Shown: positions 3,001 through 35,783 of the stretch, in pieces
Layout: the number at the start of each line of letters is the position of its first letter
Numbering within the stretch: the stretch's first letter is position 1
Assembly: GCA_002069885.1 (NCBI GenBank)
Contig: MWCD01000039.1
Coordinates: 1-35,917 of the forward strand
DNA: 35,917 nt
Direction: 5' to 3'
Source of the DNA: a bacterium ADurb.Bin236
Lineage (GTDB): Bacteria; UBP15; UBA6099
Program-made: the position numbers and the translations under genes
The notes under the pieces: model-generated
What the model saw: only the letters and a program-made list of their open reading frames with translations
Database searches by the model: none
Told to the model about the DNA's origin: nothing

Positions 3001-6000
3001 CCCGGCGATAGCTCAGCAGTCGCCCACTTTCTCCACGGCGTGGGATTATGTATTAGGAACCAGAGGCGACAGGATACAGTATCCGATAAGAGTGCATGTG
3101 GCCGACGAATTCGGAACGGCTCTCACGACGCCGTGGACATTGCAGTTCAACGGTGGCGCCTCGACTGTCAACAACGGAGCGAGCAGTTTGTTGTGGACAG
3201 CAACGGTTGCAGCGCCTTTGACGCTCGGCAAGGAAGGTTATCTAAGCATAGACGCGGCAGCGGACACTATGCTTGCGAGCGTCGAGCCCGGCGTTTCCAA
3301 GCAGACGATTGTGACGCTATCCGGAACAACGCCATGCGGCACGGGCGGTTCTGTCGCGGCGGGAACAAGCGCGACATGCAACGGACTTAAGCACAACGTG
3401 ATGGTGAATGTGGGCGATGAGTTGGGCAATGACCTCGACACGCTCGGAATCACGCTTGCAGTAAGCGATATAACTCTCGGCGGAAGCAACGCGAAGGCAG
3501 TGGATGGCAATACGTTATATTACGCGGCTCCCACGGCGGGCGTTCTTGCTCTTGCGTCGAATAACGTAAATCTAGGATTTAAGAATATCAGTACGGCAGT
3601 TGACACGCAGTTGGCTAGCATACAGAGAGAAACCACCAACCGCACTACGATCAATCTCTCCGGAATAACCGCATGCAGCACGGGCGGTTTTGTTCCCACA
3701 GGCACGACAGTTACATGCAACGGGTTGGATTATCAGATAAAGATGCTGAGCGGGGCGGGAAATCTGGAAGACGAGATCGGCGGAACTTTCACGCTTGCTC
3801 AGGCTGATATCGATAACAGCAGGATTGAAGTCTGCAACGTGGTTGATTGCGCGACCTCAGACGCGGCGGTTATGCGCATTTCAGGCGGGTCGATTTACAT
3901 CGCTCCTACAGCGGCCGCAGGCAATAAGTACATTAAGTATGCATTGCCCGGATATATGGAGACGATAGCTCCTGTTATAACGACGACGACGGCCGCCGGC
4001 GCGCCGGTGTCTCCCGTCTTCTCAGGCGCGTCAGGACTGCCCTTCGCGCTGAAACTCGCGGGCGCGGGTGTACAGAATGAACTCGGCGGCGCCGTAACGC
4101 TCGTTGGCACAGGCTCGTTGGCATTGTATCCGACGGCAGGGGATTGCACGGCCGGAACGAACTCGCTAGTTCCCATCGCCGGCCCGACATTCAGCGGCGG
4201 AGACTGGTATGTTGCTGTCGCCGACGGTCTCGGCTATGTCACAAAATACGGACAGAGCGGATATATCACAACTTGCGATGCGGACACAGTTGATGTTGAT
4301 ACTGCGCTTACAGGCGCGCAGGCCGCTCCGGACTTTACGCTTGCAGGAACAGATGGACTCGAATTCTCCGTAAAGCTTGCGCAGGGCGATCTGCTCAATG
4401 AGCTTGGAGATGCGGTCACTCTTGCGGGCGGGGACACGTTCAAGCTTTTCTCGAACCCGGACTGCACGGGCGAGGCTGTTTACATTTCAGGTCCGACGTT
4501 TGACACGGACACGTGGTATGCGGCGGTCGCGGACGGCAATTACACTCCGCAGTACACTCAGAGCGGATACTTGAGAACATGCGACAGCGCGCCGGTGGCG
4601 GTGGCTGTTGCCGGAGGAAGCGCGGGAATAGCCTTCACTGAATCGTTGCCTTTCACAGTGAAATTCGACGAAACGGTTGTTGAAGACGAGCTTGGAAACG
4701 CGCTTGCTTCGCTGGATGGAGCGGGAACGCTTAAACTGTTCGGCTCGCTAGTGGATTGTCAGGCGGGAGCTCCTGAATCTGCATATGTCACTGTTCCTTC
4801 GAACCCGGACGGCAACTGGTATGTGGCTGCTGCCAATGGAACATATTTTGCGAAACTGACAGAACCCGGATATATCGCGACTTGCGATACGACGGGAATA
4901 GTTATTGATAATACATCCGCAACTCCGTTTGCGCCTCAATGGGCGTTGGCGGACGGAGACGGATTGATGTTGCCGGTGAAAGTGGTTGTTGAGGACGTTC
5001 TAGGAAACATGATTACCGGAATTCCCGCCGGAGCCATCACAATAGGCGGGACCGGCGCGGTGGCTGGCAGCGGTCTCACGAATGAGTTGTATTATGCGGT
5101 ATCCGCACCCGGACTGCTCGAAGGCGGCGTGTCGGGATACATGGAAGTGCATACGGTTTCCGGAGCTGCGATAACAGTCACTCCAGGTACTGATGTTGAC
5201 GGGCAGACAGTTATCAGCTTGACGAACGGCGCGACGACTTGCGCCGGCGGACTGATAGCGGCCGGAGACACGGCGACGTGCGCGGGGATAAGCTTCCCGA
5301 TGGTTGTCGACACGGGAGCTGCGGCCGTCCAGAACGAACTTGGGAATTCACTTGCTCCGCTGCTCGGAACGGACACGTTGACGGTTCACGCGGTCGCAGA
5401 TTGCGCGACAGGCGCAAGCCCCGTCGGCACGGCTACTTTCAACGGCGGTAAATGGTATGTAAGCGGACTGACGGATGCCACGACATATTCAGCTAGATAC
5501 GGCAGAGCCGGATACGTGCCTTCCTGCGACGTTGAAGGAAAGACGATTGATGTTACGGGCGTCGCTGTGAATCCTGATTTTACGCTCGCAGGAACAGACG
5601 GCGTTAAGTTCCAACTGAAAGTCGTTGTGAACGACGAACTTGGAAATCCGATTAACGACACTACAGTGAGACACGGCGCGACTGTCGCTCCGTTCTCTTC
5701 AGGCAATTCTTATTACTTTAACACCACTGTAGCCGGAGACGTGTCATCGACAAGAGCCGGTTACATCACGTCGAACACAGGCAGAGACACTTCTCTTTCA
5801 AATGTTCCTGTGGCGACGACACAGCAGAGAGTAATAACATTTGACGGCGCTACATACTGCACGGTTGACAACACGACCAGTTACGCGATTCCTTGCGCCG
5901 GACAGAAGTTCTATCTAAAGGTTGTGGCGAACGACAGATGGGGCAATGCGTTGACAGGCCTGACGGTCGCGCACAACGGCGTTCCCCCCGCATACGCGGA

Positions 6001-9000
6001 TGAAGGTGTGGACGGCAATGAGTATTACTTCAACGTCAACGCCACTAACGGTGCGCTAACAGCGGGCACATTGACAGGATACACCGACCTTAACACAGGC
6101 GGAGGCGAGGACACACAAGCCGCATCCATTAACTACAGCAACGTGACGCAGACAGTGGTAACGCTCAACGGAGAAACCCGTTGCACAGGCGGAACACCGG
6201 TCATTGGTCAGAACATAACCTGTAGAGGACTCTATCCGGAAGCGGACTATGTTGTTGCGACAGAAGATGTCGTGACGGGCGAGATTATCGCCACCGAAGG
6301 CAAACTCATAAACATCGACGTTTATGATGTGAACGGCGATCCGTTCATGGTTTCAACGGATCAGTCGGTGACGGTTAATATATCCCTTACCGGCGGTTCT
6401 TCGGCTCCAGCTTCCACAATGAGTATTCTCACAGGTGTCGGCGAGACGAACTGCGATTCCGTTGTGGTTAACAGCGCGACGGATGTGGATTGCACCATTT
6501 CGACGCTCGGAGCTTCTAAAGCAGCTTCCGCTTTCGTGACTGTTTCGGTCCCGATTGTCGGAGATGGAACGGATGTTGATGTTGTTGTGGCAGGGAATCC
6601 TGCTTTTGCAAATAACGGAGCAGCGGACGCTGGAATCGCGGCTCTCGATGTTGTCCCCGGACCTCTTGCGACTCTTGAGATCGCGGGCGAACCGCTATCC
6701 ACAATAGCAGGAGACCCATTTGTCGGCGATATTACGGTAACTGCTAAGGATGCTGAAGGAAATGTTAAAACTGATTACGAAGGAACTGTGACATTCACAT
6801 CTAACGATGCTAATGCAACATTGCCCGCTGATTACACATTCACGTTGCTCGACGCGGGAGTGAAGACGTTCGCAGCGGCCGGATTTACGCTTGCGACGGC
6901 TCCGACGCTGACGGCAACGATAACGGTTGAAGACACCGTGGCGGTAGGACCGATTAACGTCACGACTGCGAACATAGAAGTGGTTCCGGGAGCGTTGTCA
7001 TACTTCACGATAACGGGAGTTCCCGCAGCGGCTGTGGCGGGGACGGCGTTTGCGACGCCTGCCAATGACTTAATCGTGACGGCATACGACGCGCAGGACA
7101 ACGTGAAGACGGATTACACGGGAACGATAGCGTTCACATCGACGGACGGGGCCGCGACGCTTCCTGCCAACTATCCGTTCTTAGTGGGAGACGCTGGAAC
7201 GAAGACATTTGCCGGAAGCGCGTTCACGTTGAACACGACCGGAAACCAGACGATAACGATAACGGACGCAGTGGCTGTTATAAGTGAAGTCACAGGCAAT
7301 ATCAACGTTGCCGCAGGAGCGTTGTCTTACTTCACAATAACGGGAGCGCCTGCGACGACTTATGCCGGGATAGCCTTCACGAATCCGGTGACTGTCACAG
7401 CTTATGACGCGCAGGATAATATCAAGACGAACTACACAGGCGAAATTGAGTTCACTTCGCCTGAGGATGCGCTAGCGACGCTGCCCGCCAACTACACTTT
7501 CGTCGGCGGAGACAACGGAGCGAAGATATTTGCGGGAGCGGAGTTCATTTTGAGAACCACGCCGTCTGCCACCATAGTGGTGACGGATACGGCGACAAGT
7601 ATCAATGAGGACACGGGCGGAATCATAGTGGTCAATCCGGGGACTCTCGGGGCTATAGAGATAACCGGCGCGCCCGCGACAATTAAGGCAGGAGAGGCAT
7701 TCAGCGGAGACATAACAGTCACTGCGTACGACCTGATCGGCAATGTAAAGACCGACTATGTGGGAACTGTCACATTCACATCGTCCGACGCAGACGCCGA
7801 GATTCCCGCTGATTACACGTTTGTTCTAGGCGACGCAGGCGTAAAGGTGTTCGCCGCCGCTGATTTCAAACTATTCGCGGCGACATTGACGGCCACAATT
7901 ACAGTAACGGACGAATTCGAGGAAGAATCCGGCTCGACTGGAAATATCGAAGTGACAGCTGACGCAGAACAGCTGAACCCGGTTAACCTCGCGTCTGTTG
8001 TCACTATTGCTTTTCCCGGAACGACAACATACGCAAACGACCTTGCACAGATAGTGCTTGAATATCCGACTACGGATCAGATCGATATACTCAAAATGCT
8101 TATCGCTGACGGTGTCACGACATATCCGGTTACTATCCACATCTTTGACAATTGGGGCAACCCGGTGCCGGGAGTTCAGGTTTACCTGATTAGGATTGAC
8201 GGCGGAGCGGGCAGGGTAGTTGCTAGAGTAGCCGGAGAAGTGTCCGGATTCGATGTTCCCGCTGTTACTGATGAAACTGGCGCGGCAGTATTCAACTTGG
8301 TGTCGGACGAAGGCGGAGAATTCGAATTCGTGGTTAGATACCAGACTGAGGACGGCGATATCATCGGGCCGAATTCCTTCAGGATTTCGTTCCAGATTGC
8401 TGACACGCATGCGCCGACACTGACAGTGACGGAAAACGGGGATATAGAAGTATCGCTGGCTGACAACGATATCTTTGAAATCGGTCAGGATATCACACTT
8501 AACTTCTCAGTGTACGACGATCCGTCCGACACATCGGGGATAGATCTTGCGGCAATCAAGCTGTATGTTGACGGAACGGCAATTGTGAATGGCGCGCAGG
8601 AAAGCGCGAGAATAGCTCATAGAAGCGGAAATCAGGTTGTGCCCGGAGCTTCGAGTTGTGAATTCAATCCGGCAACCTTGGAAGGTGTGTGCGTATGGGA
8701 TACCGACGGCGTTCCTGCGGCTGGCACCTATAACCTCACTCTGGAAGTGGCTGACAATCACGGCAACCTAGTGACGCGAACATTCGCGATACGGATGGTG
8801 GCTGCGGGCAGCTTCGTGTTCGACGAAGTGTATGCGATGCCGAACCCGATGGTTTTGCCCGGAACCGGCTCAAGCTTCACCTTCCAATCGTCCAGACCCG
8901 GTGTTGTCACAATAGAGGTTTATTCCAGCACGGGAAGGCTCGTATATACGACTACAGCCGCCTCCAGCGCAGGATTCAATCAGATTCCGTGGGATGGAAG

Positions 9001-9109
9001 AGCGATGGGCGGAGACTATGTGGCTGCCGGCGTGTACTTCTACAGGATTATCGGATCGTTCGGCGGAACTAATTTTGAGAGCAAGGGCAAGATAGCGGTG
9101 ATTAAGTAA
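2..9109 (+). CDS. Giant repeat-rich secreted surface protein, 5' partial
   Basis: The frame is open from base 2 to the stop at 9107-9109 (about 3035 residues visible), and repeat sequence is already under way at the edge, so the true start lies upstream. The first about 2080 residues are roughly 20 degenerate units with recurring ELG(N/D), (F)NGGKWYIA and SGY(V/I) signatures and paired cysteines ending CxGL. Residues about 2218-2652 are four Ig-like repeats. One or two further Ig-like domains follow (near FDNWGNPVPGVQVYL and a segment starting HAPTLTV). From about residue 2939 a FlgD-Ig/Por-type C-terminal domain is seen (MPNPM, then VYSSTGRLV, then DGRAMGGDYVAAGVYFYRI). Such domains dock secreted proteins to the cell surface, as in type IX secretion cargo. 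An adhesin or stalk-like role is inference. The stop overlaps a possible ATG of the next gene, so the two are probably co-transcribed. Confidence 0.85.
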   Translation, partial: KFNADNKAYIAPAVAVGSYKVAVSKPGYAGVIDSAAVTTNWTAAVNPDFNVAGTDAFGYHLVVKVYNELSVAIAGATVTHNGTPCTVVGGAGSNFYYCTTNTPGAIAVSAAGYMDLKVTLDTALTSVGVSTGNMTEITLDAATACTGGDPAGTSITCSGLKYPIKVVVEDELGNPINGIATNQITLGGNPADFVNGNELLYNTGGVLAGTVPGYRQNTSVASGALTVTAGTAVDGQTVLNLTGGAVQCAGGTIAAGGTLECAGLGFPLVVDAVQNELGDALTLEATDFVAVYSSAVNCTNQAAQVSEVYREFNGGKWYIAVANGTYWVKYGKSSAGYVNTCDSTSVAVSAAGAVVKPGYVGATDGLDYGVKVQLMTELGGAVETTPTLGNLTLTIGGVSAVAISGNYAYYPVTTTGAIAAGGYKGYVNVDTVADAGLGSITINASNAGSGQTVINLTGVVACGAVPASATTTCNGFDFQIKATSGGGEVVTDAANELTLVTGDTFTVCQGTSDPVVSTACVAETPINSVFNGTTRYIAPNRVGGATYVMLYRSGYVKTISAAAAPTTTSQVPLAYTGANAVKHSIKVVIETELGEVPAAVYAAGSYTVTIATQTSTQRVLNTSYFAVPTAGAMTLGFNNGTVGFLNVRNADDTQLQSVQAGVDAQTVVTLTGTALCTTGTNVPAGDSVTCRGLRYPVHIDSANVVNDIAAAVTLDGTETIEVCTDATYCTGGPEAVAAEVFDTDTYYIIPGATGSRRYYISKDGYVRRQFNTAAINYTLAGTATLTPLYTGTSALKHKLRVRMSDQVAGTNYLTDISKATLKLIPGDIAPVAYDSNYFYFTFPDATDGTFALQGGYRGFVDPTDVALATFDVNNTGRTEINMTAAVGTGCGGGVITTGAVNTCDRLRFQIMINRTGGAFLTESGAAPTNLLVSDQFKVCSNAPPADLSTYTCTDITLVSRYSTTALWYLAPDIDVATPVYVWFYRAGYVETVDLDAITVGPAIAQQSPTFSTAWDYVLGTRGDRIQYPIRVHVADEFGTALTTPWTLQFNGGASTVNNGASSLLWTATVAAPLTLGKEGYLSIDAAADTMLASVEPGVSKQTIVTLSGTTPCGTGGSVAAGTSATCNGLKHNVMVNVGDELGNDLDTLGITLAVSDITLGGSNAKAVDGNTLYYAAPTAGVLALASNNVNLGFKNISTAVDTQLASIQRETTNRTTINLSGITACSTGGFVPTGTTVTCNGLDYQIKMLSGAGNLEDEIGGTFTLAQADIDNSRIEVCNVVDCATSDAAVMRISGGSIYIAPTAAAGNKYIKYALPGYMETIAPVITTTTAAGAPVSPVFSGASGLPFALKLAGAGVQNELGGAVTLVGTGSLALYPTAGDCTAGTNSLVPIAGPTFSGGDWYVAVADGLGYVTKYGQSGYITTCDADTVDVDTALTGAQAAPDFTLAGTDGLEFSVKLAQGDLLNELGDAVTLAGGDTFKLFSNPDCTGEAVYISGPTFDTDTWYAAVADGNYTPQYTQSGYLRTCDSAPVAVAVAGGSAGIAFTESLPFTVKFDETVVEDELGNALASLDGAGTLKLFGSLVDCQAGAPESAYVTVPSNPDGNWYVAAANGTYFAKLTEPGYIATCDTTGIVIDNTSATPFAPQWALADGDGLMLPVKVVVEDVLGNMITGIPAGAITIGGTGAVAGSGLTNELYYAVSAPGLLEGGVSGYMEVHTVSGAAITVTPGTDVDGQTVISLTNGATTCAGGLIAAGDTATCAGISFPMVVDTGAAAVQNELGNSLAPLLGTDTLTVHAVADCATGASPVGTATFNGGKWYVSGLTDATTYSARYGRAGYVPSCDVEGKTIDVTGVAVNPDFTLAGTDGVKFQLKVVVNDELGNPINDTTVRHGATVAPFSSGNSYYFNTTVAGDVSSTRAGYITSNTGRDTSLSNVPVATTQQRVITFDGATYCTVDNTTSYAIPCAGQKFYLKVVANDRWGNALTGLTVAHNGVPPAYADEGVDGNEYYFNVNATNGALTAGTLTGYTDLNTGGGEDTQAASINYSNVTQTVVTLNGETRCTGGTPVIGQNITCRGLYPEADYVVATEDVVTGEIIATEGKLINIDVYDVNGDPFMVSTDQSVTVNISLTGGSSAPASTMSILTGVGETNCDSVVVNSATDVDCTISTLGASKAASAFVTVSVPIVGDGTDVDVVVAGNPAFANNGAADAGIAALDVVPGPLATLEIAGEPLSTIAGDPFVGDITVTAKDAEGNVKTDYEGTVTFTSNDANATLPADYTFTLLDAGVKTFAAAGFTLATAPTLTATITVEDTVAVGPINVTTANIEVVPGALSYFTITGVPAAAVAGTAFATPANDLIVTAYDAQDNVKTDYTGTIAFTSTDGAATLPANYPFLVGDAGTKTFAGSAFTLNTTGNQTITITDAVAVISEVTGNINVAAGALSYFTITGAPATTYAGIAFTNPVTVTAYDAQDNIKTNYTGEIEFTSPEDALATLPANYTFVGGDNGAKIFAGAEFILRTTPSATIVVTDTATSINEDTGGIIVVNPGTLGAIEITGAPATIKAGEAFSGDITVTAYDLIGNVKTDYVGTVTFTSSDADAEIPADYTFVLGDAGVKVFAAADFKLFAATLTATITVTDEFEEESGSTGNIEVTADAEQLNPVNLASVVTIAFPGTTTYANDLAQIVLEYPTTDQIDILKMLIADGVTTYPVTIHIFDNWGNPVPGVQVYLIRIDGGAGRVVARVAGEVSGFDVPAVTDETGAAVFNLVSDEGGEFEFVVRYQTEDGDIIGPNSFRISFQIADTHAPTLTVTENGDIEVSLADNDIFEIGQDITLNFSVYDDPSDTSGIDLAAIKLYVDGTAIVNGAQESARIAHRSGNQVVPGASSCEFNPATLEGVCVWDTDGVPAAGTYNLTLEVADNHGNLVTRTFAIRMVAAGSFVFDEVYAMPNPMVLPGTGSSFTFQSSRPGVVTIEVYSSTGRLVYTTTAASSAGFNQIPWDGRAMGGDYVAAGVYFYRIIGSFGGTNFESKGKIAVIK
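6653..7957 (+). repeat. Four tandem Ig-like protein repeats
   Basis: Four in-frame coding repeats start near 6653, 6983, 7310 and 7634 and are about 330, 327, 324 and 324 bp long. Each begins (V/A/N)xGxL and carries ITVTAYDxxxNVKTDY, then a (T/S)FTS strand, then PA(D/N)Y and GDxGxKxFA. The similarity is clear at protein level. They form a rod-like section between the cysteine-repeat region and the C-terminal domains. Family: bacterial Ig-like surface repeats. Confidence 0.85.
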
Positions 9110-22196: not shown

Positions 22197-24035
22197 CTAT
22201 AAATATAAAGCTGTTTTGCCTTCTGGAGAGGTGGCCGAGAGGCTGAAGGCGTCGGTCTCGAAAACCGATTTGGCGCTTGCGTCAACGTGGGTTCGAATCC
22301 CACCCTCTCCGTGTTTTTCACCAAAGAATTTTTGTGCGGAAATATCTTCGCAGTTATCGCGTTTTTTTGGTTTACCGCGTTTGCGGGAGCCGTTTCTTGA
22401 TCTATCGTCTCCTCCACTATCGCTGCCGTCTCCGCCGTCATCCGAACCCGGCGCGAGGAATCTGTCCGGGTCGAAAACAGATGGGATGCCGTAGTGTATT
22501 TCATACCATTCCGGGTCAATGATGATTTTGTTGATGAAAGTGTTCATGAGTTCTTTTCGCTTGCCGAACGGTAGCCTGTCAAACATTTCTCTTAGCTTGT
22601 CAAAATCAATATTCAGAATCGCGTCATCAAATTGATTGTCTTCCACCTGACACGCCAGAATCGTCGTTTTCATGTCTGAAATTCGGAATTCGAATTCTTT
22701 GATATTCCCCTGATGCTTTTCCACCTGCGCGGACAGCTTTTCCGGGTCCAAATTGCCATCCTCGAATGCTTTGTAATATTTCTGTAAAGCCATCTCAATT
22801 TTTTCTTTTTCCCTCTGAAGCGCGGCTATCTCTTGTCTTTTTGCAGTTGTCATTGCTTTGACATCATCAGCGCGTTTTTCTCGTTTCATCCTAAGATTCG
22901 CTTTCGACAGAATCTTATCGAATAGTTTGTCGACGATCAATTTATCGAAGTCGTCCCTGTTCAGATTTTTGTTGTCCCTTTTCTTTGCATAGCTTCCGCG
23001 CGATGAACAAATGTAACTCGTCCACACGTATTCTTTCCCATTCTGCTTTTTTCTGCATGTAAATCCGTGGTAGCAGTTCCCGCATACGTTGCACTTTATC
23101 AGACCACCCAGAAGATATTGCGACCGCAGTGATTGGGCTTTGGATTTATCCGATTCGGACAGCCTTATCTGAACCCGGTTGAATATTTCCATCGGCACAA
23201 TCGGGTCCACCGCGCCATCGAACCTGACCCACTCCTCCGGGTCTTTTGTATCGAAGGAGCCGTGATACCGCCCGTTTCTTTTTTCCTCTTTGTTGTAAAC
23301 GACGTTCCCGATGTAGATTTCGTTTCGGAGCATCCTTGAAAAAGAGGACGACCGCCACGGAAGCCCGCGTATTGTCGTTATTCCTTTCTCGTTCAGGAAT
23401 GCGGTGATTTTTTTGAATCCCATCCCCTCGGCATACATTTCAAAGATTCTCTTGGCGACCGGAGCCGTCTCAGGGTCCGGCTCCCATTTAACCCGCTTGC
23501 AGCCATTGTCCTGTATTTCCAATCTGCGCAGTCCGAACGGCGGCGGTCCACCCGTGGAATAACCTTTCCGGGCCAGATGTTTCTTGCTACGCTCCACGTC
23601 CTTGACGTACTCAAGCCGCGAGAATTCGGCAACCGCCCGCAGGATTTCGATAATCAACTTGCCGAGCGCGTCATCGGAGTTGAACGGTTCCTTGTGGTAA
23701 AAGATGGATACGCCGCGTTCTTTAAGTTTCTCGGTCGCAATGTAGGACTCCATTGTATTGCGCCCGAACCGGGACACGGACCACGTCAACACGAGATCGA
23801 ACGGCGGCGGCTTGATCTGCGTGTCGCGCATCATCTCCTGAAACGCCGGTCTGTTGAACGTCCCGCCGGAGATGGTATCGCTGTAAACCTTGTAAACGGT
23901 TTTTCCGCGCTTTTCCGCCTCGTGTCTCAGAGTTTCAATCTGAGATTCAAGCGAAAGTCCGACATCGGCCTGCATCTGCGTGCTGACGCGCACGTAGATG
24001 GCGCAGGGCCTATTTTTCTTGTTAAGCTGGCTCAT
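22197..24035 (-). CDS. Large serine site-specific recombinase (integrase); tail encoded by tRNA antisense
   Basis: 612 residues. The N-terminal resolvase domain has YVRVSTQ with catalytic Ser18 and the segment SRFGRNTMESY. The recombinase domain follows (GGPPPFGLRRLEI). A zinc-ribbon cluster (CNVCGNC, then a Cys in FTC and one in ICSS) lies near 315-350, and a coiled coil near 400-455. A strong SD (GGAGGGGG) lies just before ATG 24035. This is the normal large-serine-integrase order. From about residue 575 the frame crosses the tRNA-Ser gene antisense (GEGGIRTHVDASAKSV and onwards) and stops only at 22197. The last about 38 residues are therefore encoded by chromosomal sequence, and the native phage-encoded tail would differ in the excised form. 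Confidence 0.9.
   Translation of the reverse strand: MSQLNKKNRPCAIYVRVSTQMQADVGLSLESQIETLRHEAEKRGKTVYKVYSDTISGGTFNRPAFQEMMRDTQIKPPPFDLVLTWSVSRFGRNTMESYIATEKLKERGVSIFYHKEPFNSDDALGKLIIEILRAVAEFSRLEYVKDVERSKKHLARKGYSTGGPPPFGLRRLEIQDNGCKRVKWEPDPETAPVAKRIFEMYAEGMGFKKITAFLNEKGITTIRGLPWRSSSFSRMLRNEIYIGNVVYNKEEKRNGRYHGSFDTKDPEEWVRFDGAVDPIVPMEIFNRVQIRLSESDKSKAQSLRSQYLLGGLIKCNVCGNCYHGFTCRKKQNGKEYVWTSYICSSRGSYAKKRDNKNLNRDDFDKLIVDKLFDKILSKANLRMKREKRADDVKAMTTAKRQEIAALQREKEKIEMALQKYYKAFEDGNLDPEKLSAQVEKHQGNIKEFEFRISDMKTTILACQVEDNQFDDAILNIDFDKLREMFDRLPFGKRKELMNTFINKIIIDPEWYEIHYGIPSVFDPDRFLAPGSDDGGDGSDSGGDDRSRNGSRKRGKPKKRDNCEDISAQKFFGEKHGEGGIRTHVDASAKSVFETDAFSLSATSPEGKTALYL
22225..22311 (+). tRNA. tRNA-Ser (anticodon CGA)
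   Basis: The acceptor stem GGAGAGG (22225-22231) pairs perfectly with CCTCTCC (22304-22310), and the discriminator is G (22311), as expected for serine. The anticodon loop is CTCGAAA with anticodon CGA at 22259-22261 and a 5-bp stem. A long variable arm of class II type lies between about 22269 and 22286. The T arm is GTGGG/CCCAC around TTCGAAT. CCA is not encoded. The gene is complete and sits at the border of the integrated element. Confidence 0.95.
22287..22311. other. Probable left attachment site in the 3' end of tRNA-Ser
   Basis: The recombinase gene abuts and overlaps the tRNA, which stays intact. Elements that integrate in tRNA genes usually carry a copy of the T arm and 3' end so that the tRNA is restored. 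The span given is the T arm to the discriminator base. The matching right-hand copy should lie beyond the window. Confidence 0.4.
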
Positions 24036-24481: not shown

Positions 24482-24853
24482 ATGACCGCAATAAAGGAAT
24501 TTGGAAAAAGAATAAAAGAATTAAGGGAAGCGAAAAAAAGGGACGATCCTGCTTTTTCCCTGAGAAGGTTCGGACAGGCCGTTGACCTGAGTCCGACATT
24601 TCTGAGCAAACTTGAAAACGGAGAAATGAGTCCTCCGAAAGCGGAAAAGATTGAGAAGATGGCCGAACTGCTCGGCGTGGACGCTGATGAATTGCTGGCG
24701 CTTGCGGGAAAAGTATCTCCCGACCTCCCCAAAATCATTCAGAAAACGCCGGTTGCAATGGCTGAATTTCTCCGAACCGCGAATGAAGAAGGCTTGTCGG
24801 AAAAAGAGATACAGAAATTGACTGAACAGATACGCAAAAGGAAGAAAGTGTAG
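24482..24853 (+). CDS. XRE-family HTH transcriptional repressor
   Basis: 123 residues. The N-terminal helix-turn-helix spans about residues 7-65: FGKRIKELREAKK, the recognition part LSPTFLSKLENGEMSPP, then IEKMAELLGVDADELLALAG. The C-terminal part is helical and charged (ends RKRKKV). The next gene is an ImmA-type protease ten bases downstream. The pair resembles the ImmR/ImmA control of ICEBs1 and related prophages, where the protease cleaves the repressor on induction. By analogy this would be the element's lysogeny repressor. It is divergent from the recombinase group. Confidence 0.85.
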   Translation: MTAIKEFGKRIKELREAKKRDDPAFSLRRFGQAVDLSPTFLSKLENGEMSPPKAEKIEKMAELLGVDADELLALAGKVSPDLPKIIQKTPVAMAEFLRTANEEGLSEKEIQKLTEQIRKRKKV

Positions 24854-24863
24854 TCCAGGGCTT

Positions 24864-25586
24864 ATGACGTCAATCGTGAAATTCATTCCTCGTGATAAGA
24901 TTGAAGCGGAAGCGGTGAAGACCCTTTGCGACTACGGGCGCAAGTATGGAGATGTTGTCAGCCCCCCCGTACCCGCTGAAGAGATAATTGAATCACTGCT
25001 GGGTCTGACGCTTGGTTTCGACGATCTGCCGGAAGTGCTCAAGACGCCGGGAGTTCTGGGGGCGACATGGGTTCTCGACAGAAAAGTATTGATTGATGAA
25101 ACCCTCGATCCCGAAGTGTATCCCCAGAAGGAAGGACGATTCCGATTTACGGTGGCGCACGAGATAGGTCACTGGCAGTTGCACAGCCATTTGTATCTTA
25201 CAAATGAAAAACAAATGAAATTATTCGACATGGATGATAAACCGAGTATTGTTTGTCGCGCCAAGGACAGGAAAGAACCGATGGAATGGCAGGCTGATGT
25301 TTTCGCCGGATATCTTCTCATGCCGGAGGAGATGATAAGAAAATCGTGGCTTGAGAAATATGGAATGAACGAGCCTTACGTGGCCGCAACGGAAATCGGT
25401 CGCCTGAGTACGAAGCTGGGCCTTGGTGAAGACAATACGCCGACCGTGGAAATAGCGCGGGAGATAGCTAAGGACTTCAAGGTCTCCGGGCAAGCCATGC
25501 AGATCAGGTTGATCGGCATGGGTCTGATTCAGGTCAGGGATCAGGGTCCGTCAATCTTCGATGGAGGTGTGGATGACACGAACTGA
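24864..25586 (+). CDS. ImmA/IrrE-family metallopeptidase
   Basis: 240 residues. The zinc-metalloprotease motif HEIGH lies in RFTVAHEIGHWQLHSHL near residue 95, and the downstream EWQADVFAGYLLMP supplies the usual third-ligand Glu/Asp region. This is the hallmark of the IrrE/ImmA (DUF955) family. The upstream segment VSPPVPAEEIIESLLGL is also typical. Probable role: cleavage of the XRE repressor encoded just upstream, relieving repression of the element. The start is ATG 24864 with a weak SD (CAGGG), so expression may depend on coupling to the XRE gene. Confidence 0.88.
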   Translation: MTSIVKFIPRDKIEAEAVKTLCDYGRKYGDVVSPPVPAEEIIESLLGLTLGFDDLPEVLKTPGVLGATWVLDRKVLIDETLDPEVYPQKEGRFRFTVAHEIGHWQLHSHLYLTNEKQMKLFDMDDKPSIVCRAKDRKEPMEWQADVFAGYLLMPEEMIRKSWLEKYGMNEPYVAATEIGRLSTKLGLGEDNTPTVEIAREIAKDFKVSGQAMQIRLIGMGLIQVRDQGPSIFDGGVDDTN

Positions 25587-25593
25587 AAGCTAC

Positions 25594-25640
25594 GGGCATT
25601 TTTTTTGCCCTGTTGTGTTTACTGTTTAGCCAATGTTGGC
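25594..25640 (+). promoter_or_regulatory. Hairpin and palindrome ahead of the unknown gene pair
   Basis: GGGCA (25594-25598) and TGCCC (25606-25610) flank a T-only loop and could form a weak hairpin just after the ImmA stop. GCCAA-TG-TTGGC (25629-25640) is a perfect 12-bp interrupted palindrome. It is followed by the AT-rich CATATAAAAAT and by the SD GGAGG 7 bases before ATG 25670. The palindrome is a plausible operator for the next two genes. No clear -35 was found. Confidence 0.4.
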
Positions 25641-25669
25641 ATATAAAAATCTGAAATGGAGGCAAAACG

Positions 25670-26839
25670 ATGTCTAAAACATTTTCCATGAAACGGTTTC
25701 TCATCGCAACATCCAATGAATCTCTCGCGGGATATTTCACCGCGAAAGGCATCTCCATAGAGGTGGATTTGACGGCGCTCGGCGAAGCCGACAGCGGCCC
25801 GATAATGAAATCCATCCAGGAGATGCCGCGCGACGTTTCTTCGCGCATTGAAAACGATTTCAGGGACATCCATGCTCTCAGTTACGAGGGTGGGATCAAA
25901 ACGCTGCTTGCCGAAACGCGGGACAATTTCGATGAAATCTCCGACGCGCTGCTCGTCATCGATGGACATGAGGATAAAGTCATGTGGGTGTTTCTCAACA
26001 AACCGGAAGTATTCGAATCCGCCTCGACATGGCATCGCATCGACACTATGACGCGGTGGCGGCATAGAAAGAACCTGCCGAAGGCGCGCCCGGCGACCGA
26101 CGATGAAACCAAGGCGGCGCTCGCCGGAGTTCTCTCTGAATATTTCAGGGAGGAGGCGCGCGGCAGGAATTGCGAAGTGGAAACGTATGAACGTCCCGAC
26201 TGCGTGTGCTATCACGCTTTTCCCGAGGACTATGCGACCACCGACATGTGCTACGACGAGGACGGGCGCCTGCAAAGGCGCATCCGCAAATCGGTCTTTG
26301 AAATCATTTTCTGCTACCACCCCGATGAAGGGCGTCTCAGCATAAACGGCGGAGGCCGAAAAGACCAGATCGATATGCTCTGTGAGATGTTCACGGACAA
26401 TGTGCTTAAAATACCCGCGGAACCTGATCTGAAGAACGACCGTGTTTTCGACCTGAGCGGCCTCAAAAACCGCGATTTTGAGTTTGTCACCGATCCTGCG
26501 GACAACGTCGAGTTCGTTAGGGTGAAGAGCCTCGGTTTTTCCGTCGTCGGAAACAGCGGAAGGAAAATAGCGCTTGAAGCCGATCCCGACAACAACGGAA
26601 ACAGGCAGGCGGTGTATGACCATATCGACCAAAGCATCAACAAGGAGAATGTTCCAGCGGACCAGATGCTTGTTAAAAAGGCGACGATTCAGATGAAGTT
26701 TCCCGGCAAGGGGAATCACGGCAGCGTCACATTCGAGATAGGATGGCCGGATTCATGCACGTTGAAAGACGGGGAGAACCACCGCAAGGTCAAGGAATAC
26801 CTGAAGAGATGGGGGATCGATAAATGCGCGACGCAATAA
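25670..26839 (+). CDS. Uncharacterised protein, first of an overlapping gene pair
   Basis: 389 residues, soluble, with no signal or TM segments. A good SD (GGAGG) precedes ATG 25670. The N-terminal part (about 1-130) includes an acidic stretch DALLVIDGHEDKVMWVFLN. The middle has a cluster of Cys/His/Tyr (YERPDCVCYHAF, then TTDMCYDEDGRL). The C-terminal half has FDLSGLKNRDFEF, DPADNVEFVRVKSL, the block ALEADPDN, and near the end IGWPDSCTLKD and YLKRWGI. I recognise no catalytic motif. The C-terminal blocks look like a family I recall only as a conserved hypothetical from accessory regions of other bacteria, not checked. The 16-base overlap with the next gene shows they act together. Confidence 0.8.
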   Translation: MSKTFSMKRFLIATSNESLAGYFTAKGISIEVDLTALGEADSGPIMKSIQEMPRDVSSRIENDFRDIHALSYEGGIKTLLAETRDNFDEISDALLVIDGHEDKVMWVFLNKPEVFESASTWHRIDTMTRWRHRKNLPKARPATDDETKAALAGVLSEYFREEARGRNCEVETYERPDCVCYHAFPEDYATTDMCYDEDGRLQRRIRKSVFEIIFCYHPDEGRLSINGGGRKDQIDMLCEMFTDNVLKIPAEPDLKNDRVFDLSGLKNRDFEFVTDPADNVEFVRVKSLGFSVVGNSGRKIALEADPDNNGNRQAVYDHIDQSINKENVPADQMLVKKATIQMKFPGKGNHGSVTFEIGWPDSCTLKDGENHRKVKEYLKRWGIDKCATQ

Positions 26840-27891
26840 TTAATATTCTGGGGACCGCCGAGGCCTCGGATAGCGCCGCTTTTGCCGATAGTGAAATGCT
26901 GGACTGGCGGGATGGAGTGAAAGGTGCGCTGCTGTCCGATGGAATACTGAAAGAATTGGACCATGCCCGTGCGATTGAATGCGACGGCTGTGACAACCGC
27001 TGCATCGAGAAAGTCCGCATAAGAAAGAGGGCTGGCGGGTCGGTGATAGCCACCGTTTACTGCGGCGCGAGAGATGATATCGGGAGCGTGAACGTGCCTC
27101 TCGACCGTTTGCGGCGCTGGGGCATTGACTGGGATCGGCTTGCCCATCTTGTCTGTAAATCGCTTGGCGCATCGGGACCATCTGAAAACATCGTGCCACG
27201 ACGATTGTGGCGTCTTGGCGGTAACAACATCGACGGAATGAAGGCCGAGCTTTTTCTGGCGGTTGGGCTGGAGCGTGCCGGCGGAAATGATCTCCGCAAG
27301 GAAATCCGCAGTCATGCTTCTCTTCCCTCCCCTGTTGTAATCATTCCTCTAAAAAAGCCTCCGGGCCGCTTCGGCGATTTCCGTTTTGTCTGCTTACGTT
27401 CAATTATGAATGTGTCGAATGGCCGCAGTCTCTTTTCTCTGGATGAACTGGCTATCGTACTCGGCGCAAAAAAGAAATCGAAAAACGCGCCTGTCGTCGT
27501 GAAAACTTTCCCGCTCTCCGCTGGGAAGGATTTTACGGCGGTTGCCATGACTCTTTACGACGGTGGAAAAATGGATGTAAACATCTCAGGTGCCGGAAGC
27601 GAAGTGTATTCGTATGAAGACATGGGATTCGCCGATGGGAGGAGAACTCCCACTACTCCGAATGATCTGTGGGGTGTGCTAAATGCCTTTGCACAATTTC
27701 ACGGACAGATTACATGGAAAGACAACATCGGTAGTCAGAAAGAGCGGGCAAATCTGAAAAAGCAGGTTTCTCTCGTTTCATCTGTCCTACAAACATTTTT
27801 CCAAACGAATGAAAGTCCGTTCCATCCATATTCAAAAGAAGACGGATACAGAACCCGGTTCGTTATAACCGACAGCAGGACAAATAGATGA
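26824..27891 (+). CDS. Uncharacterised protein with CxxCxxxC cluster, second of the pair
   Basis: 355 residues, soluble. ATG 26824 lies inside the end of the previous gene (16-base overlap), so translation is coupled. Near residues 50-80 is ECDGCDNRC followed by a single Cys in VYCGA, a likely zinc-binding knuckle. It is followed by VPLDRLRRWGIDWDRLAHLV and VPRRLWRLGG, which look like a DNA- or protein-binding module. The C-terminal about 150 residues are mixed alpha/beta with no motif I know. It ends just before palindromic sequences and a terminator, so the pair is a closed unit. Function unknown; defence, superinfection control or element regulation are all open. Confidence 0.8.
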   Translation: MRDAIINILGTAEASDSAAFADSEMLDWRDGVKGALLSDGILKELDHARAIECDGCDNRCIEKVRIRKRAGGSVIATVYCGARDDIGSVNVPLDRLRRWGIDWDRLAHLVCKSLGASGPSENIVPRRLWRLGGNNIDGMKAELFLAVGLERAGGNDLRKEIRSHASLPSPVVIIPLKKPPGRFGDFRFVCLRSIMNVSNGRSLFSLDELAIVLGAKKKSKNAPVVVKTFPLSAGKDFTAVAMTLYDGGKMDVNISGAGSEVYSYEDMGFADGRRTPTTPNDLWGVLNAFAQFHGQITWKDNIGSQKERANLKKQVSLVSSVLQTFFQTNESPFHPYSKEDGYRTRFVITDSRTNR

Positions 27892-27986: not shown

Positions 27987-28012
27987 AAGGGCTGAAAAAG
28001 CCCTTTATTTTT
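27987..28012 (+). terminator. Rho-independent terminator after the unknown gene pair
   Basis: AAGGGCT (27987-27993) and AGCCCTT (27999-28005) form a 7-bp stem with a GAAAA loop, followed by TATTTTTG. It separates the repressor/unknown-pair unit from the sigma-like genes. Confidence 0.8.
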
Positions 28013-28128: not shown

Positions 28129-28755
28129 ATGAAAAACAGTTATGAGGGGCTGGACGACCGCATTGTAAAAACGGTTCTCATCAAAGCAAAACAACTCATC
28201 GGCAAAGCCGGATACACCAGCGAGGATTACGACGACATCGTTCAGGAAATGATCCTCGACATCTATTGCCGTTTGTCGAAATACGACCCGGCAAGGTCGA
28301 CATTCAAAACCTTTATCAATCGCATCGTTGAAATGAAATGCGCGGACATGCTCCAGGCGGGACATGCGGCGAATAACGATTTGAACCGGCGTGCGGAAAG
28401 CCTGAACCTGATTGTCGAGCAGGAAGACGGGGCGCAACTGGAATGCATACAGACTGTTTCCGTGGAGGAACTGCCGTGGAATAACGGCGCGGTCTTCGCA
28501 GCGGAATCCGATCTATCAGACTTCAAAATCGACCTTCAAAAAATCATGTCCCGGCTGTCGCCCAGAAATCGAACTTTGTGCGAACGCCTCACGCGCGAAC
28601 ACATCTCCGAAATATGCCGTGACAGTGGCATCTCCAGAACAGCTCAATACGACCACATCAGGCAGATACGGAAAAAGCTTCAAGAAGCCGGTTTTGAAAT
28701 TTATTTGGGACACCCCCCCGTCATTTTTCCCGGACTCCCGGTAAGTGAAAAGTGA
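28129..28755 (+). CDS. Sigma-70-like RNA polymerase factor (first of two tandem paralogues)
   Basis: 208 residues. The N-terminal region resembles sigma region 2: YDDIVQEMILDIYCRLSKYD, then STFKTFINRIVEMKCADML. A central acidic linker follows. The region-4-like HTH is LSPRNRTLCERL then ISEICRDSGISRTAQYDHIRQI. Probable role: redirects host RNA polymerase to element promoters. The last about 18 codons lie inside the 63-bp inverted repeat, so the C terminus (HPPVIFPGLPVSEK) may not be ancestral. SD GGGAGGCG lies in a foldable leader. The domain order is clear, but its promoter targets are unknown. Confidence 0.75.
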   Translation: MKNSYEGLDDRIVKTVLIKAKQLIGKAGYTSEDYDDIVQEMILDIYCRLSKYDPARSTFKTFINRIVEMKCADMLQAGHAANNDLNRRAESLNLIVEQEDGAQLECIQTVSVEELPWNNGAVFAAESDLSDFKIDLQKIMSRLSPRNRTLCERLTREHISEICRDSGISRTAQYDHIRQIRKKLQEAGFEIYLGHPPVIFPGLPVSEK

Positions 28756-28762
28756 GGGCGTT
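28700..28762 (+). repeat. 63-bp inverted repeat, right copy (IR-R)
   Basis: It matches the reverse complement of 24295-24357 at 56 of 63 positions. It covers the 3' end of the first sigma-like gene and ends 22 bases before the SD of the second. With its partner it brackets 4468 bp, including the XRE, ImmA, unknown-pair and first sigma genes. Confidence 0.85.
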
Positions 28763-28799
28763 GATCATCGGATGCCGCGACCATGAGGAGGTACGAAGG

Positions 28800-29417
28800 A
28801 TGTTTTCAGCAAATAAATACGAGGATTTCACCGATTACGAAGTTGAACTTGCGAGGGCAACCGCCAGAAAGATGGTCGGCAACTGCGGTCTCTCGATGGA
28901 CGATGTTCCCGACCTTGAGCAGGAATTGATGTGTCACCTGTGGAAAAAGAAGCGCGAATTCAATCCGGAGCACCTGTCCCAGTGCAGTTATAAGACGTTT
29001 GTCTCGCGGGTCATCGCAAAAAAGAAAGTGAGCATCTTCAGGGAGAAGTCCCGCGAGAGACGGCTTCTGGACCACAGGAAAGACCTCATTGAAGCATACG
29101 GTGAAGAGTTGTTCGACGACGCTTCCGACGCCTCCGATGCGTCGCCGTGCATCACACGCGACCAGATCACATGGAGTTCGGCAAACGACAGTTCATGCGG
29201 CTCGGTGGAAGAACGGGTAATCTCCAAAGTTTTACTCGAAGAGAACCTGAAGAAACTGCCTTTCATTCAGCAGACAGTGTTCCTTTTGCGTGAAGCCGGA
29301 TACAGCCCCCTCGATATCTCCGAACAACTGAACATATCCAAGACCGCTGTCTACAAGCACTTGAATATCGCCATTTTGAAACTCAATGAAGCCGGTGTTT
29401 TCGACCGGAGAGATTGA
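28800..29417 (+). CDS. Sigma-70-like factor (second tandem paralogue)
   Basis: 205 residues from ATG 28800, chosen because GAGGAGG (28785-28791) lies 8 bases upstream. A GTG at 28752 is in frame but lies in the inverted repeat and lacks an SD. Region-2-like sequence (DVPDLEQELMCHLWKKKREF, then SYKTFVSRVIAKKK) aligns with the first sigma-like protein, as does the region-4 HTH (LPFIQQTVFLLREAGYSPLD, then LNISKTAVYKHLNIAILKL). A polar linker with DASDASDAS joins them. It probably serves a different promoter set or time. It is the first gene of the run that continues into the recombination module. Confidence 0.75.
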   Translation: MFSANKYEDFTDYEVELARATARKMVGNCGLSMDDVPDLEQELMCHLWKKKREFNPEHLSQCSYKTFVSRVIAKKKVSIFREKSRERRLLDHRKDLIEAYGEELFDDASDASDASPCITRDQITWSSANDSSCGSVEERVISKVLLEENLKKLPFIQQTVFLLREAGYSPLDISEQLNISKTAVYKHLNIAILKLNEAGVFDRRD

Positions 29418-33176: not shown

Positions 33177-33608
33177 ATGGTCATTGTTATCGATACCAGA
33201 GAGAAACATCCCTATTCGTTTTCCGTTCCGGTTACGAAACGGAAACTCGAAGCGGGCGATTACTCCATCGAAGGCTTCGAGGCGGTCGCGGCCATCGAGC
33301 GCAAAGAATTGAACGATTACGTTCAGACCATCATTTACCGGAAAGAACGATTCGGAAAGGAACTGGCGAAGCTATCGCACTACCGGTTGAAGGCCATCGT
33401 CGTCGAGGCGTCGATGTCCGACATCCTCGAGGGCCGGTATGAAGGCCACATTCCCCCGCAATCCGTCATAGGCGCGACGATAGGCATTCATCTCGGGTTC
33501 GGCATTCCCATCCATTTTTGTTGCAACCGCCAGATCGCGCTTCATTTCACGGAAACATTGCTCACGAAGTTTTACGAGCGTCAGACCGGCGAGAGGATCG
33601 GAAAATGA
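33177..33608 (+). CDS. ERCC4-domain (XPF/Mus81-like) nuclease
   Basis: 143 residues. The catalytic block DTREK near the N terminus, then GDYSIEGF and IERKELND, gives the GDxn-ERKx3D signature of the ERCC4 nuclease domain. No helix-hairpin-helix domain follows, so it is a minimal version as found in phages. It probably cuts branched or flap structures during replication or recombination. Its stop overlaps the next start (ATGA) by 4 bases, so the RecD2-like gene is translationally coupled. Confidence 0.88.
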   Translation: MVIVIDTREKHPYSFSVPVTKRKLEAGDYSIEGFEAVAAIERKELNDYVQTIIYRKERFGKELAKLSHYRLKAIVVEASMSDILEGRYEGHIPPQSVIGATIGIHLGFGIPIHFCCNRQIALHFTETLLTKFYERQTGERIGK

Positions 33609-34519
33609 AAAAGAAAAAATGCGAGGAAACGATCAACGGCATCGTCACAAGGGTGTTCTTCAATCGGGACGGTTTCTTTTCCGGCGTGCTGCGAACCTCA
33701 ACGGGCGAAACAATCCGTGTGTGCGGCGCGATGACCGCGAATGAGAACGATGCCGTAATTGTCCGGGGTTCGTTTGAGCAAAACAAATACGGCACGCAGC
33801 TCCGCGTCACGGCGTTTGAATACGACATGGCGTTCGACACTGCCGGAATAGTTCATTACCTCACCTGCAATCCGGCGATGAAGGGCATCGGCCCGCAACG
33901 CGCCCGGGCCATCGCGGAATTCTGCGGCGCGGAATTCGACACCATCATCACCGATGATCCGAAACGGCTTCTGTCAATCAAGGGGATTACGCCGGACATC
34001 GTCACGCAACTCCACGACGAGTGGGTCAAATACAAATCCCTGAATAAAACGATCACGTTTCTCGCCGGGTTCGGCATTACCCACAAACAGATCAACGCGC
34101 TGATCGACAAATACGGAAACTTCGCTCTGCAGTTCATGAAGGAGAATCCGTACAAGATCATCGAGGACATTCCCGGCTACGGATTCAAAAAAGCGGATGT
34201 CATCGCCCTTAAAATGGGCGTTCCAAAGAACGACCCTAACAGAATACACGCGGGGCTATTTTATCTCGTTCAGAAAAACATTCAGGACGGCGACACATGG
34301 ATTGAATCGGAATGCCTCGTTTCCGAGGCGAACAAACTCCTCATCATGGACACGCTCGACAGCCGGGAAATCATCAGTAAACGGCTCGATGCGATGATCG
34401 AGGCCGAAACCCTCTCCGAATACCACTTCGACAACCGCGTTCTTGTGTCGCTCCCGTCAATTTATCATCAGGAGGCATTCATTGGTGACACCTTCCAGAA
34501 ACTTTGTTCAAAACAATGA
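33605..34519 (+). CDS. recD2: RecD2-like helicase, N-terminal half (OB and HhH domains)
   Basis: 304 residues from ATG 33605, which overlaps the ERCC4 stop. The first about 85 residues look like the OB-like RecD2 N-terminal domain (TRVFFNRDGFFSGVLRT). Tandem helix-hairpin-helix blocks follow: MKGIGPQRARAIAEFCG, LLSIKGITPDIVTQLHDEW, and IIEDIPGYGFKKADVIAL. The end SLPSIYHQEAFIGDTFQ matches the linker that normally leads into the helicase core. The stop at 34519 falls there and the helicase continues in another frame. Either a split gene or a frameshift. Confidence 0.85.
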   Translation: MKKKKCEETINGIVTRVFFNRDGFFSGVLRTSTGETIRVCGAMTANENDAVIVRGSFEQNKYGTQLRVTAFEYDMAFDTAGIVHYLTCNPAMKGIGPQRARAIAEFCGAEFDTIITDDPKRLLSIKGITPDIVTQLHDEWVKYKSLNKTITFLAGFGITHKQINALIDKYGNFALQFMKENPYKIIEDIPGYGFKKADVIALKMGVPKNDPNRIHAGLFYLVQKNIQDGDTWIESECLVSEANKLLIMDTLDSREIISKRLDAMIEAETLSEYHFDNRVLVSLPSIYHQEAFIGDTFQKLCSKQ

Positions 34520-35783
34520 CAAGTTTGATCTCGATGATGTTTCGTCTTCCGTTCCGCAGGAACTGAATCCCTGCCAACGGCGGGCATATCTCGCGGCCGC
34601 GCGGTACAAGGCCGTTCTCATCGCGGGCGGCGCGGGAGTCGGCAAAAGCTACGTGGTCGGCAAAATCGCGTGTCTGTACGCCGAACACGGCTACCGCGTC
34701 GCGCTCGCGGCGCCCACGGGCAAGGCGGCGAAGAGAATCGAGCAGATCGTCGACATGCCCGCACAGACGGTCCACCGGCTTCTGAAATACAACGGCCATG
34801 AGTTCGCGCGGAATGAGGAATCCCCGCTCAACTGTGATGTCGTCATCGTGGACGAGGTCTCCATGCTCGACGTGCCGCTCTGCTACCGCCTGTTCAAGGC
34901 GATTGATTTTACGAAGACGAATCTCGTGCTGGTCGGCGACCACAACCAGTTGCCGCCCGTGGGCCCCGGCAACATCATCCGGGACATTCTCTCGAACGGT
35001 CTGCTCCCCACCGTGATTCTCGACGAGGTCGTCCGCCAGGCAGGTCTCCTGAAGGAAAACAGCATCGCCATTCTCGACGGGCGCGTTGCCGGAAACACGG
35101 AAACGGATGAAGGAAGGAAAAGCTGGTATCTCGTCGACAAATATACCGAGCAGACTGACATCCTGAATTTCATCATGCTCATGTACGAGAAAATCCTCGA
35201 CGAGAAACTCGGATACCACATCGTCAACAGCGTTCAACTGCTTGCGCCGATGAAGAAGGGACTCCTCGGCGTCGACAACCTGAACATCGTTCTCCAGCGG
35301 CTGATTCAGAAGAAATGCCACGGCGTTGATGTTGACGACGTCCCCGCCGGACGCAGGCCCCGGTTTTATCTTCACGACAAGGTGATTCAACTTCGCAACA
35401 ATTACGACCTCAACGTAATGAACGGGTCCATCGGAACAATCGAGTCTTACGATGCGGACGCCGGTGTTTACACCATCCTCTTCGACGAGGGTGAGACACA
35501 GGTCGAACGCGATGATATGAAGGACGTCGCGCTCGCTTACGCGCTGACATTCCACAAAAGCCAGGGCTCCGAATACGAGTGCGGGATTGTGATTGTTCAC
35601 AAATCCCAGTCGTTCATGCATCACAGGAACCTGTTCTACACCGGAGTCACCCGCGCGAAAAAGACCGCGATCATCATCGGCGACCGATGGGGCATTCGGA
35701 ACTGCGCGAAGCACAAGATCACCGACCGGCGGCGGACATTCCTGAGTTTGGAAGGATTCCCCCGTGAGGTCGCCGCCGGATGA
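34485..35783 (+). CDS. recD2: RecD2-like helicase, C-terminal half (SF1B ATPase core)
   Basis: 432 residues from GTG 34485; TTG 34482 is an alternative. AGGAGG (34470-34475) lies 9 bases before the GTG. The product begins in the linker (NDKFDLDDVSSSVPQELNPC) and has the SF1B motifs: Q-like LNPCQRRAY, Walker A GGAGVGKS, motif Ia APTGKAAKR, Walker B DEVSMLD, motif III VGDHNQLPPVGPG, and the UvrD_C_2 segment ALTFHKSQGSEYECGIVIV with VTRAKK near the end. It unwinds DNA 5'-3' by family knowledge. It overlaps the N-half by 35 bases in another frame, so the two polypeptides may form a two-subunit helicase. Confidence 0.88.
   Translation: MTPSRNFVQNNDKFDLDDVSSSVPQELNPCQRRAYLAAARYKAVLIAGGAGVGKSYVVGKIACLYAEHGYRVALAAPTGKAAKRIEQIVDMPAQTVHRLLKYNGHEFARNEESPLNCDVVIVDEVSMLDVPLCYRLFKAIDFTKTNLVLVGDHNQLPPVGPGNIIRDILSNGLLPTVILDEVVRQAGLLKENSIAILDGRVAGNTETDEGRKSWYLVDKYTEQTDILNFIMLMYEKILDEKLGYHIVNSVQLLAPMKKGLLGVDNLNIVLQRLIQKKCHGVDVDDVPAGRRPRFYLHDKVIQLRNNYDLNVMNGSIGTIESYDADAGVYTILFDEGETQVERDDMKDVALAYALTFHKSQGSEYECGIVIVHKSQSFMHHRNLFYTGVTRAKKTAIIIGDRWGIRNCAKHKITDRRRTFLSLEGFPREVAAG

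Follow-up and report, generated by a model that had tools for sequence, protein, structure and literature searches.

The window, that is, the whole stretch of DNA analysed here, is a complete 35.9-kb contig from a draft genome of 3.87 Mb whose relatives are sparsely sampled; of the 98 genomes searched, only six others belong to its order. Its left two thirds carry ordinary host genes (efflux pump, MFS transporter, methyltransferase), and a temperate phage starts after a serine recombinase gene. As shown in Table 1, the pair described here, g1 and g2, follows an HTH repressor gene and an M78 peptidase gene, and is itself followed by two sigma-like genes, an exonuclease, a Sak4-like ATPase and more. 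The phage module in the window ends, after the Sak4-like ATPase, with a DUF669 single-strand-binding protein, an ERCC4 nuclease and RecD2, and because the contig ends within this module no virion genes are visible in it. The repressor and M78 genes resemble the ImmR/ImmA modules of ICEBs1-type elements, judging from family matches; those modules are not known to carry a g1-g2 pair. A tRNA-Ser(CGA) (22224-22312, plus strand) lies within the 3′ end of the recombinase gene and may mark the left attachment site of the element. The sigma-like genes stand in tandem in the window, while one was mapped in other phages of the lineage. The RecD2-like helicase is spread over two overlapping frames (33518-34519 and 34443-35783), a sign of a frameshift or of an error in sequencing. 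The C-terminal part of a 3020-aa protein (47-9109) weakly matches Ig-like, FlgD_ig and CHU_C (type IX secretion signal) domains.

Table 1. Features of the g1-g2 locus and its flanks, numbered from the first base of the window.
Feature	Position	Strand	Basis
Serine recombinase gene	22197-24035	-	
HTH repressor (Cro/CI-type) of the element	24482-24853	+	Pfam HTH_31/HTH_19/HTH_3, E 5e-11 to 4e-9
M78 (ImmA/IrrE-like) peptidase, presumed antirepressor	24864-25586	+	Pfam Peptidase_M78, E 2.7e-12
Hairpin between M78 and g1, possible terminator	25594-25610	+	Hairpin scan
Operator-like element GTGTTTACTGTTTAGCCAAT, overlapping the -35-like hexamer, 5′ of g1	25615-25634	+	Gibbs motif
Promoter-like pair TTTACT-18-TATAAA 5′ of g1	25618-25647		
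Dyad GCCAATGTTGGC 5′ of g1	25629-25640		
Shine-Dalgarno sequence GGAGG 5′ of g1	25658-25662		
g1, 389 aa	25670-26839	+	ORF list
g1/g2 overlap, 16 nt	26824-26839		
g2, 355 aa	26824-27891	+	ORF list
Predicted zinc site of g2 (C53, C56, C60, C80)	26980-27063	+	Conservation in 51 homologues
Exchangeable C-terminal DNA-binding domain of g2, OmpR/PhoB-like winged helix	27538-27879	+	Structure matches
Intrinsic terminator-like hairpin after g2, T-rich tail	27987-28005	+	Hairpin scan
Sigma-70-like factor 3′ of the pair	28129-28755	+	Pfam Sigma70_r2, E 1.1e-6
Second sigma-like gene	28752-29417		

A preliminary description of this DNA had reported two overlapping reading frames with a palindrome and a Shine-Dalgarno sequence upstream and a terminator downstream, and each of these was found again. 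The frames did not arise by chance, since homologues with conserved order and overlap occur across many phyla. The promoter-like pair was not among the calls of a simple promoter scan, and in the hairpin scan the window was no richer in terminator-like sites overall than shuffled sequence.

Relatives of the pair were reached only by profiles. With the window proteins, tblastn found nothing in 50,697 phage and 72,556 plasmid records, nor did two g1 relatives, one for each collection; a sequence search of IMG/VR with the window proteins found nothing either. When 84,980 species genomes were scanned under the guidance of a profile, 118 relatives of g1 came out and 80 of them were kept; IMG/VR gave 45. 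A g2 homologue lay directly 3′ of g1, usually overlapping it, in 126 of 130 loci, and one short form of the overlap was common to 44 loci. Three of the four exceptions (L042, L045 and L063) end at a contig edge, and L016 alone truly lacks g2; L008 was rejected as a further case because its g2 is masked by a longer antisense ORF. Among 386 diverse genomes, g1 was found in five and the N-terminal domain of g2 in the same five; in a sixth, a weaker, divergent g2 stood directly 3′ of a divergent g1, and three more marginal g2 rows (E about 0.01) look like chance. By record title, the hosts belong to Planctomycetota, Proteobacteria, Acidobacteria, Armatimonadota, Gemmatimonadota, Chloroflexi, Cyanobacteria and other phyla. 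g1-g2 is thus a real, fixed and mobile pair, as the preliminary description had supposed, and, L016 apart, the homologues occurring singly that it had set against a joint function were not found. In two loci g1 is broken near its middle (L049, 7977-9218; L060, 7986-9206); these are decayed genes or sequencing errors.

The survey of gene neighbourhoods suggested in the same description placed the pair in phage repressor regions and in islands beside restriction-modification (R-M) genes. The phages have the order repressor, M78, g1, g2, sigma, Sak4, DUF669, helicase. In the integrative islands the pair stands between variable defence genes and genes for AlpA-like, DUF3987-like primase and tyrosine recombinase proteins. 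The nearest large upstream gene (n = 81), often one for restriction or for a defence helicase, matched ResIII in 24 cases, SNF2 in 13 and N6_Mtase in 10 in Pfam, and the PADLOC models matched there were type I MTase/REase, mad2, DrmD and PbeA. At least 56 of 111 non-redundant loci had a member of an R-M-type cluster. Where phages carry R-M genes, these lie on the far side of the repressor and M78 genes from the pair, and the pair is kept without R-M genes in the window, L127 and L129. In L011 (4208-9802), g1-g2 is divergent beside a Cas9-like gene with CRISPR-like repeats.

The place of the pair in the phages is nearly fixed. A Cro/CI-type HTH repressor was two genes before g1 in 11 non-redundant phage loci, and M78 was immediately 5′ of g1 in 18 non-redundant loci. 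When the M78 profile was used to collect 59 IMG/VR loci, 46 had the order M78-g1-g2-sigma, which is the layout of the window. In five (L205, L211 and L227-L229) M78 was followed directly by sigma and the pair was absent, so the pair is not essential to phages that keep repressor, M78 and sigma. Two others held a different pair in the slot (L202, 4620-6813; L226, 4831-6253), formed by a weak-SAP protein and a zinc/winged-helix protein; the latter, in L202, has a C-terminal domain of a class also borne by g2. A scan with the SAP-type protein gave 13 loci, and its homology to g1 was not detectable by hhalign. The analogous SAP-type pair, with swapped C-terminal DNA-binding domains, was also seen in L239-L250. 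On these counts the slot is near-fixed in the phage lineage, yet dispensable and open to an analogous pair. The preliminary view of g1-g2 as cargo is therefore too simple for a pair so firmly seated between M78 and sigma. On the island side, four relatives of the recombinase (54-66% identity) were without g1-g2 in the available sequence. In pair-less phages the stretch from M78 to sigma contains a small gene, about 120 aa long (L205, 4558-4926; L227, 2419-2763), and similar-looking small genes stand between g2 and sigma in L180, L206 and L209; its assignment as a tandem DUF2292 protein was rejected, Pfam giving only one copy at E 0.086.

As stated before, the pair matched no phage structural or replication family. 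For g1 there was no sequence match in Pfam, PADLOC or PDB, and one non-significant row in NCBIfam (E 0.16). PHROG 37634 is the same family as g1, matched over almost its whole length (E 3.1e-28; g1 residues 5-384 on profile positions 4-405 of 416); its library entry records neither function nor partner, and the pair, widespread as it is, has no name beyond this number. The most conserved block of g1 is RGxxC...R...FAYPxD, which contains its only invariant Cys, C168. The Cys/His-rich middle claimed earlier did not hold up, since most homologues have Tyr and Phe instead around C168, and a zinc- or Cys/His-based function of g1 was dropped for the same reason.

The AlphaFold2 model of g1 (101 sequences; pLDDT 93.4, pTM 0.82) has a helical N-terminal region (1-126) followed by alpha/beta repeats at about 130-252 and 263-380. 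Foldseek against PDB gave two matches at E≤0.001, E. coli RdgC (2owl; E 3.7e-4, probability 1.00) and yeast Chl4 (E 7e-4), and then other CENP-N entries; named matches among viral models include RdgC-like recombination proteins. Alignment by VIA gave Z 9.3 over 163 residues for Chl4 (Chl4/CENP-N range 8.0-9.3, 162-178 residues, rmsd 5-6 Å), 8.2 for CENP-N, 6.8 for RdgC (223 residues, rmsd 6.8; model 122-388 on RdgC 1-302), 5.7 for TBP and 5.4-5.9 for Iml3; these are matches of a predicted model at moderate Z and rmsd 5-7 Å, and a Z around 8 may reflect a common arrangement. RexA was not among the matches listed for g1, which excludes nothing. RexA, RdgC, IML3 and CHL4 are described as one DNA-binding fold (PMC11077077), and the Chl4/Iml3 complex as related to RdgC and TBP (PMC4080450). 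The published DALI Z for RexA and RdgC is 4.4 (PMC11077077), so that g1, at 6.8 by VIA, appears to be about as near RdgC as RexA is, allowing for the different aligners. g1 is predicted to have the RdgC/CENP-N fold class that includes RexA, and a fold common to lambda RexA would lend weight to the earlier guess of superinfection exclusion.

At the level of sequence the picture was different. In hhalign the g1 alignment gave a probability of 0.4% (P 0.15) against lambda RexA and P 0.5 against E. coli RdgC. PF04381 (RdgC) was not among the best 25 of 35 families at E≤1 for 101 g1 homologues, window g1 itself had no PF04381 match, and CENP-N/Chl4 had no profile match to g1 in the PDB search. Because sequence-level support is absent, homology behind the fold matches of g1 is unproven. 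RdgC, the best Foldseek match, shares with the g1 model its overall fold and two-repeat alpha/beta architecture over 223 residues, but the identity is 8-9%, nothing in the aligned part corresponds to the g1 N-terminal region, and RdgC has no g2-like partner. The inner-kinetochore proteins CENP-N/Chl4 and CENP-L/Iml3 have a helical N-terminal domain and then an RdgC/TBP-like domain, an arrangement that the g1 model may share; with about 10% identity and a eukaryotic nucleosome-binding role for CENP-N/Chl4, the likeness of the predicted model would be one of fold only.

No match to g2 was found in Pfam, NCBIfam, PADLOC or PHROG, PDB gave one chance row, and PADLOC 2.0 at E≤10 gave 0 families for g1 as for g2. 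The AlphaFold2 model of g2 (pLDDT 85.3) begins with a winged-helix-like part that includes a zinc site, continues with an alpha/beta domain in the middle and closes with an OmpR-like winged helix. Because Foldseek with the whole model found nothing at E≤0.001, the first of these assignments is tentative. The Cys cluster noted before (ECDGCDNRC) is present and conserved as the predicted zinc ligands: C56 and C80 in 51 of 51 aligned homologues, C53 in 48 and Cys or His at position 60 in all 51. The VPRRLWRLGG stretch, too, lies within a conserved block (W/LG, G132). Residues 239-352 matched BaeR (4b09) at Z 6.2 and an OmpR/PhoB homologue (1kgs) at Z 6.0. The highest 19-residue hydropathy of g2 was 0.95 and was below 1.6 in 92 of 102 homologues, and no membrane or catalytic effector domain was found in g2. 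Two readings were set aside. The mid domain weakly resembles nucleases (EndoMS, Bax1, TIP26; Z 3-5), but a conserved catalytic motif was not seen in the alignment; a pair of the type 'TBP plus TFE/TFB-like' is too weakly indicated, at Z 5.7 for g1 with TBP and Z 3-4 for g2 with TFIIE and RNA polymerase III factors.

The C-terminal part of g2 is exchanged between homologues. About 20 sequence classes were found among 100 g2 homologues, and single homologues matched the MarR_2, Sigma70_r4, Trans_reg_C, IclR, GerE or HTH_17 families. The class changed at least 22 times on the g1 tree, one class accounting for five changes and that of the window for four. The window-type module also stands on unrelated N-termini (L012, E 5e-14; L249, E 5e-13). 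On the models and alignments, g2 resembles an adaptor for DNA targeting with a freely swapped DNA-binding end, and this swapping offers natural specificity variants for direct tests. In L012 the module (4283-5029) occurs without g1, on a contig with terminase-like, ParB-like and DNA methylase-like genes.

A Gibbs motif search upstream of g1 in 25 phage loci, the window's included, gave a motif of 16.1 bits, compared with 8.0-8.2 in shuffles. Most of these loci have GTGTTTACTGTTTA(C/G)TGxAC in common, 20-100 nt 5′ of g1. The window site scores 21.4, chance matches at or above 12 amounting to 0.014 per kb, and the motif is kept in the window even though window g1 shares no more than 36% identity with its relatives. 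Weaker copies were found around or upstream of the repressor gene start in several relatives, a copy precedes the analogous pair in L202, and the same motif occurs at loci with different g2 C-terminal classes. We rejected the element as an operator of g2 on these three grounds, which make the phage repressor the likeliest binder of this putative operator. As the motif is common to different g2 C-terminal classes, the C-terminal part of g2 is probably not the binder. Phage loci also have 7-bp tandem repeats upstream of g1.

Island loci have a different upstream motif, made of 10-bp direct repeats (11.5 bits against about 7.5 in shuffles). The repeats were in tandem directly 5′ of g1 in 13 of 34 loci at lag 10, where 5 were expected. 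Since no repressor/M78 unit was recognised in the islands, autoregulation of g1-g2 would be likely there.

In lambda, rexA follows cI. The lambda RexA-RexB pair and the Rex-like pairs of Sbash, CarolAnn, Toast and P. putida P1 are, as g1-g2 is, two-gene units beside the repressor, and RexA-RexB is likewise accessory and mobile. The position of g1-g2 directly 3′ of HTH repressor and M78, in the window and in the phage lineage, matches that of RexAB. Several features separate the two. g1 has an extra helical N-terminal region; RexB is a membrane protein (four TM helices in P. putida), whereas g2 is a predicted soluble zinc/winged-helix DNA-binding protein; and g1-g2, unlike RexAB, also occurs in non-phage islands next to R-M genes. 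As g2 is not a membrane protein and g1 has no detectable sequence similarity to RexA, g1-g2 is not RexAB proper. RexA acts on the lambda switch by stabilising its lytic state, and Rex both regulates its own element and excludes other phages (PMC11077077).

We tentatively favour g1-g2 as a RexA-like, soluble two-protein DNA-binding module that would control the early switch of its element and perhaps exclude other phages. The strict pairing, the fold matches, the place after the repressor like that of rexA after cI, the diversity of g2 HTH domains, the upstream repeats and the analogous pair in the slot point this way; the excess of acidic over basic residues in window g1 (67 vs 54) does not favour DNA binding. 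The two proteins would act as a complex, in which g1, with its predicted RexA/RdgC/CENP-N fold, probably clasps DNA without strong sequence preference, and g2, as a soluble adaptor, probably guides it to certain places on the DNA of the element itself. In the window phage the pair would be transcribed as a unit of its own, placed after the repressor/M78 antirepressor genes and before the early genes, and preceded by the element also found upstream of the repressor gene in some relatives. Lifting of the repressor would switch the pair on and bias the early switch of the element, as RexA does in lambda, and exclusion of other phages would be a possible second effect, as with Rex. If g1-g2 is such a module, the Rex puzzle, among the oldest in phage biology, would extend to elements with a DNA-targeting partner in place of a membrane protein.

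The main rival reading is an anti-phage system (superinfection exclusion or abortive infection) in which g1 senses foreign or stressed DNA and the pair blocks the invader or stops the cell, like RexAB. We consider it rather unlikely. In Pseudomonas putida, one two-gene defence system includes a RexA-like protein (PMC12894663), and the patchy, mobile and always paired occurrence of g1-g2, with frequent R-M and defence helicase neighbours, would agree with such a role. PADLOC, however, has no match for either protein, g2 is predicted to be soluble and DNA-binding with no effector domain of the membrane or catalytic kind found, and the R-M genes of the phages, lying beyond repressor and M78, are not needed for the pair to persist.

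We regard a module for replication initiation or segregation, with g2 binding origin- or centromere-like repeats and g1 clasping DNA there, as improbable. It would explain the tandem island repeats, the primase, helicase and SSB genes that adjoin the pair and the predicted fold common to CENP-N/Chl4, binders of centromeric chromatin; but the repeats overlap the presumed g1 promoter, as autoregulation would give, the neighbouring replication genes vary among backbones, and both the phages and the island recombinase have relatives that lack the pair. There is little to be said for the pair shielding or regulating element DNA against restriction, nucleases or RecA, as is thought for RdgC, and being kept near R-M genes for that reason: RdgC, which restrains RecA (PMC11077077), is the best Foldseek match of g1 and R-M genes are neighbours, but g1 has a helical N-terminal region lacking in aligned RdgC, a general shield would not be expected to have an exchangeable partner that reads sequence, and the pair is present also where R-M genes were not seen.

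For the switch module that we favour, the role in islands must be put more generally, because these have no repressor/M78 unit. A broader and more speculative proposal, which we think doubtful, is that g1-g2 represents a widespread, hitherto unnamed class of two-protein DNA-targeting complex. In it a bacterial clamp of the CENP-N/RdgC fold would be steered by an adaptor whose DNA-binding domains are interchangeable, and unrelated phages and defence islands would use it to control their own DNA; the clamp would also be a candidate for a prokaryotic relative of the CENP-L/N fold of the kinetochore. The family supplies numerous bacterial proteins that join a predicted helical domain to a CENP-N/RdgC-like fold, and these would help in asking how the kinetochore fold arose. 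In about 20 of 47 island loci (L010, L011, L034, L037, L040 and others) a palindrome, TTGGGCGgaaattttCGCCCAA, begins 7-11 nt past the g2 stop. In these loci another CGCCCAA site follows 140-190 nt downstream, ahead of AlpA when that gene comes next.
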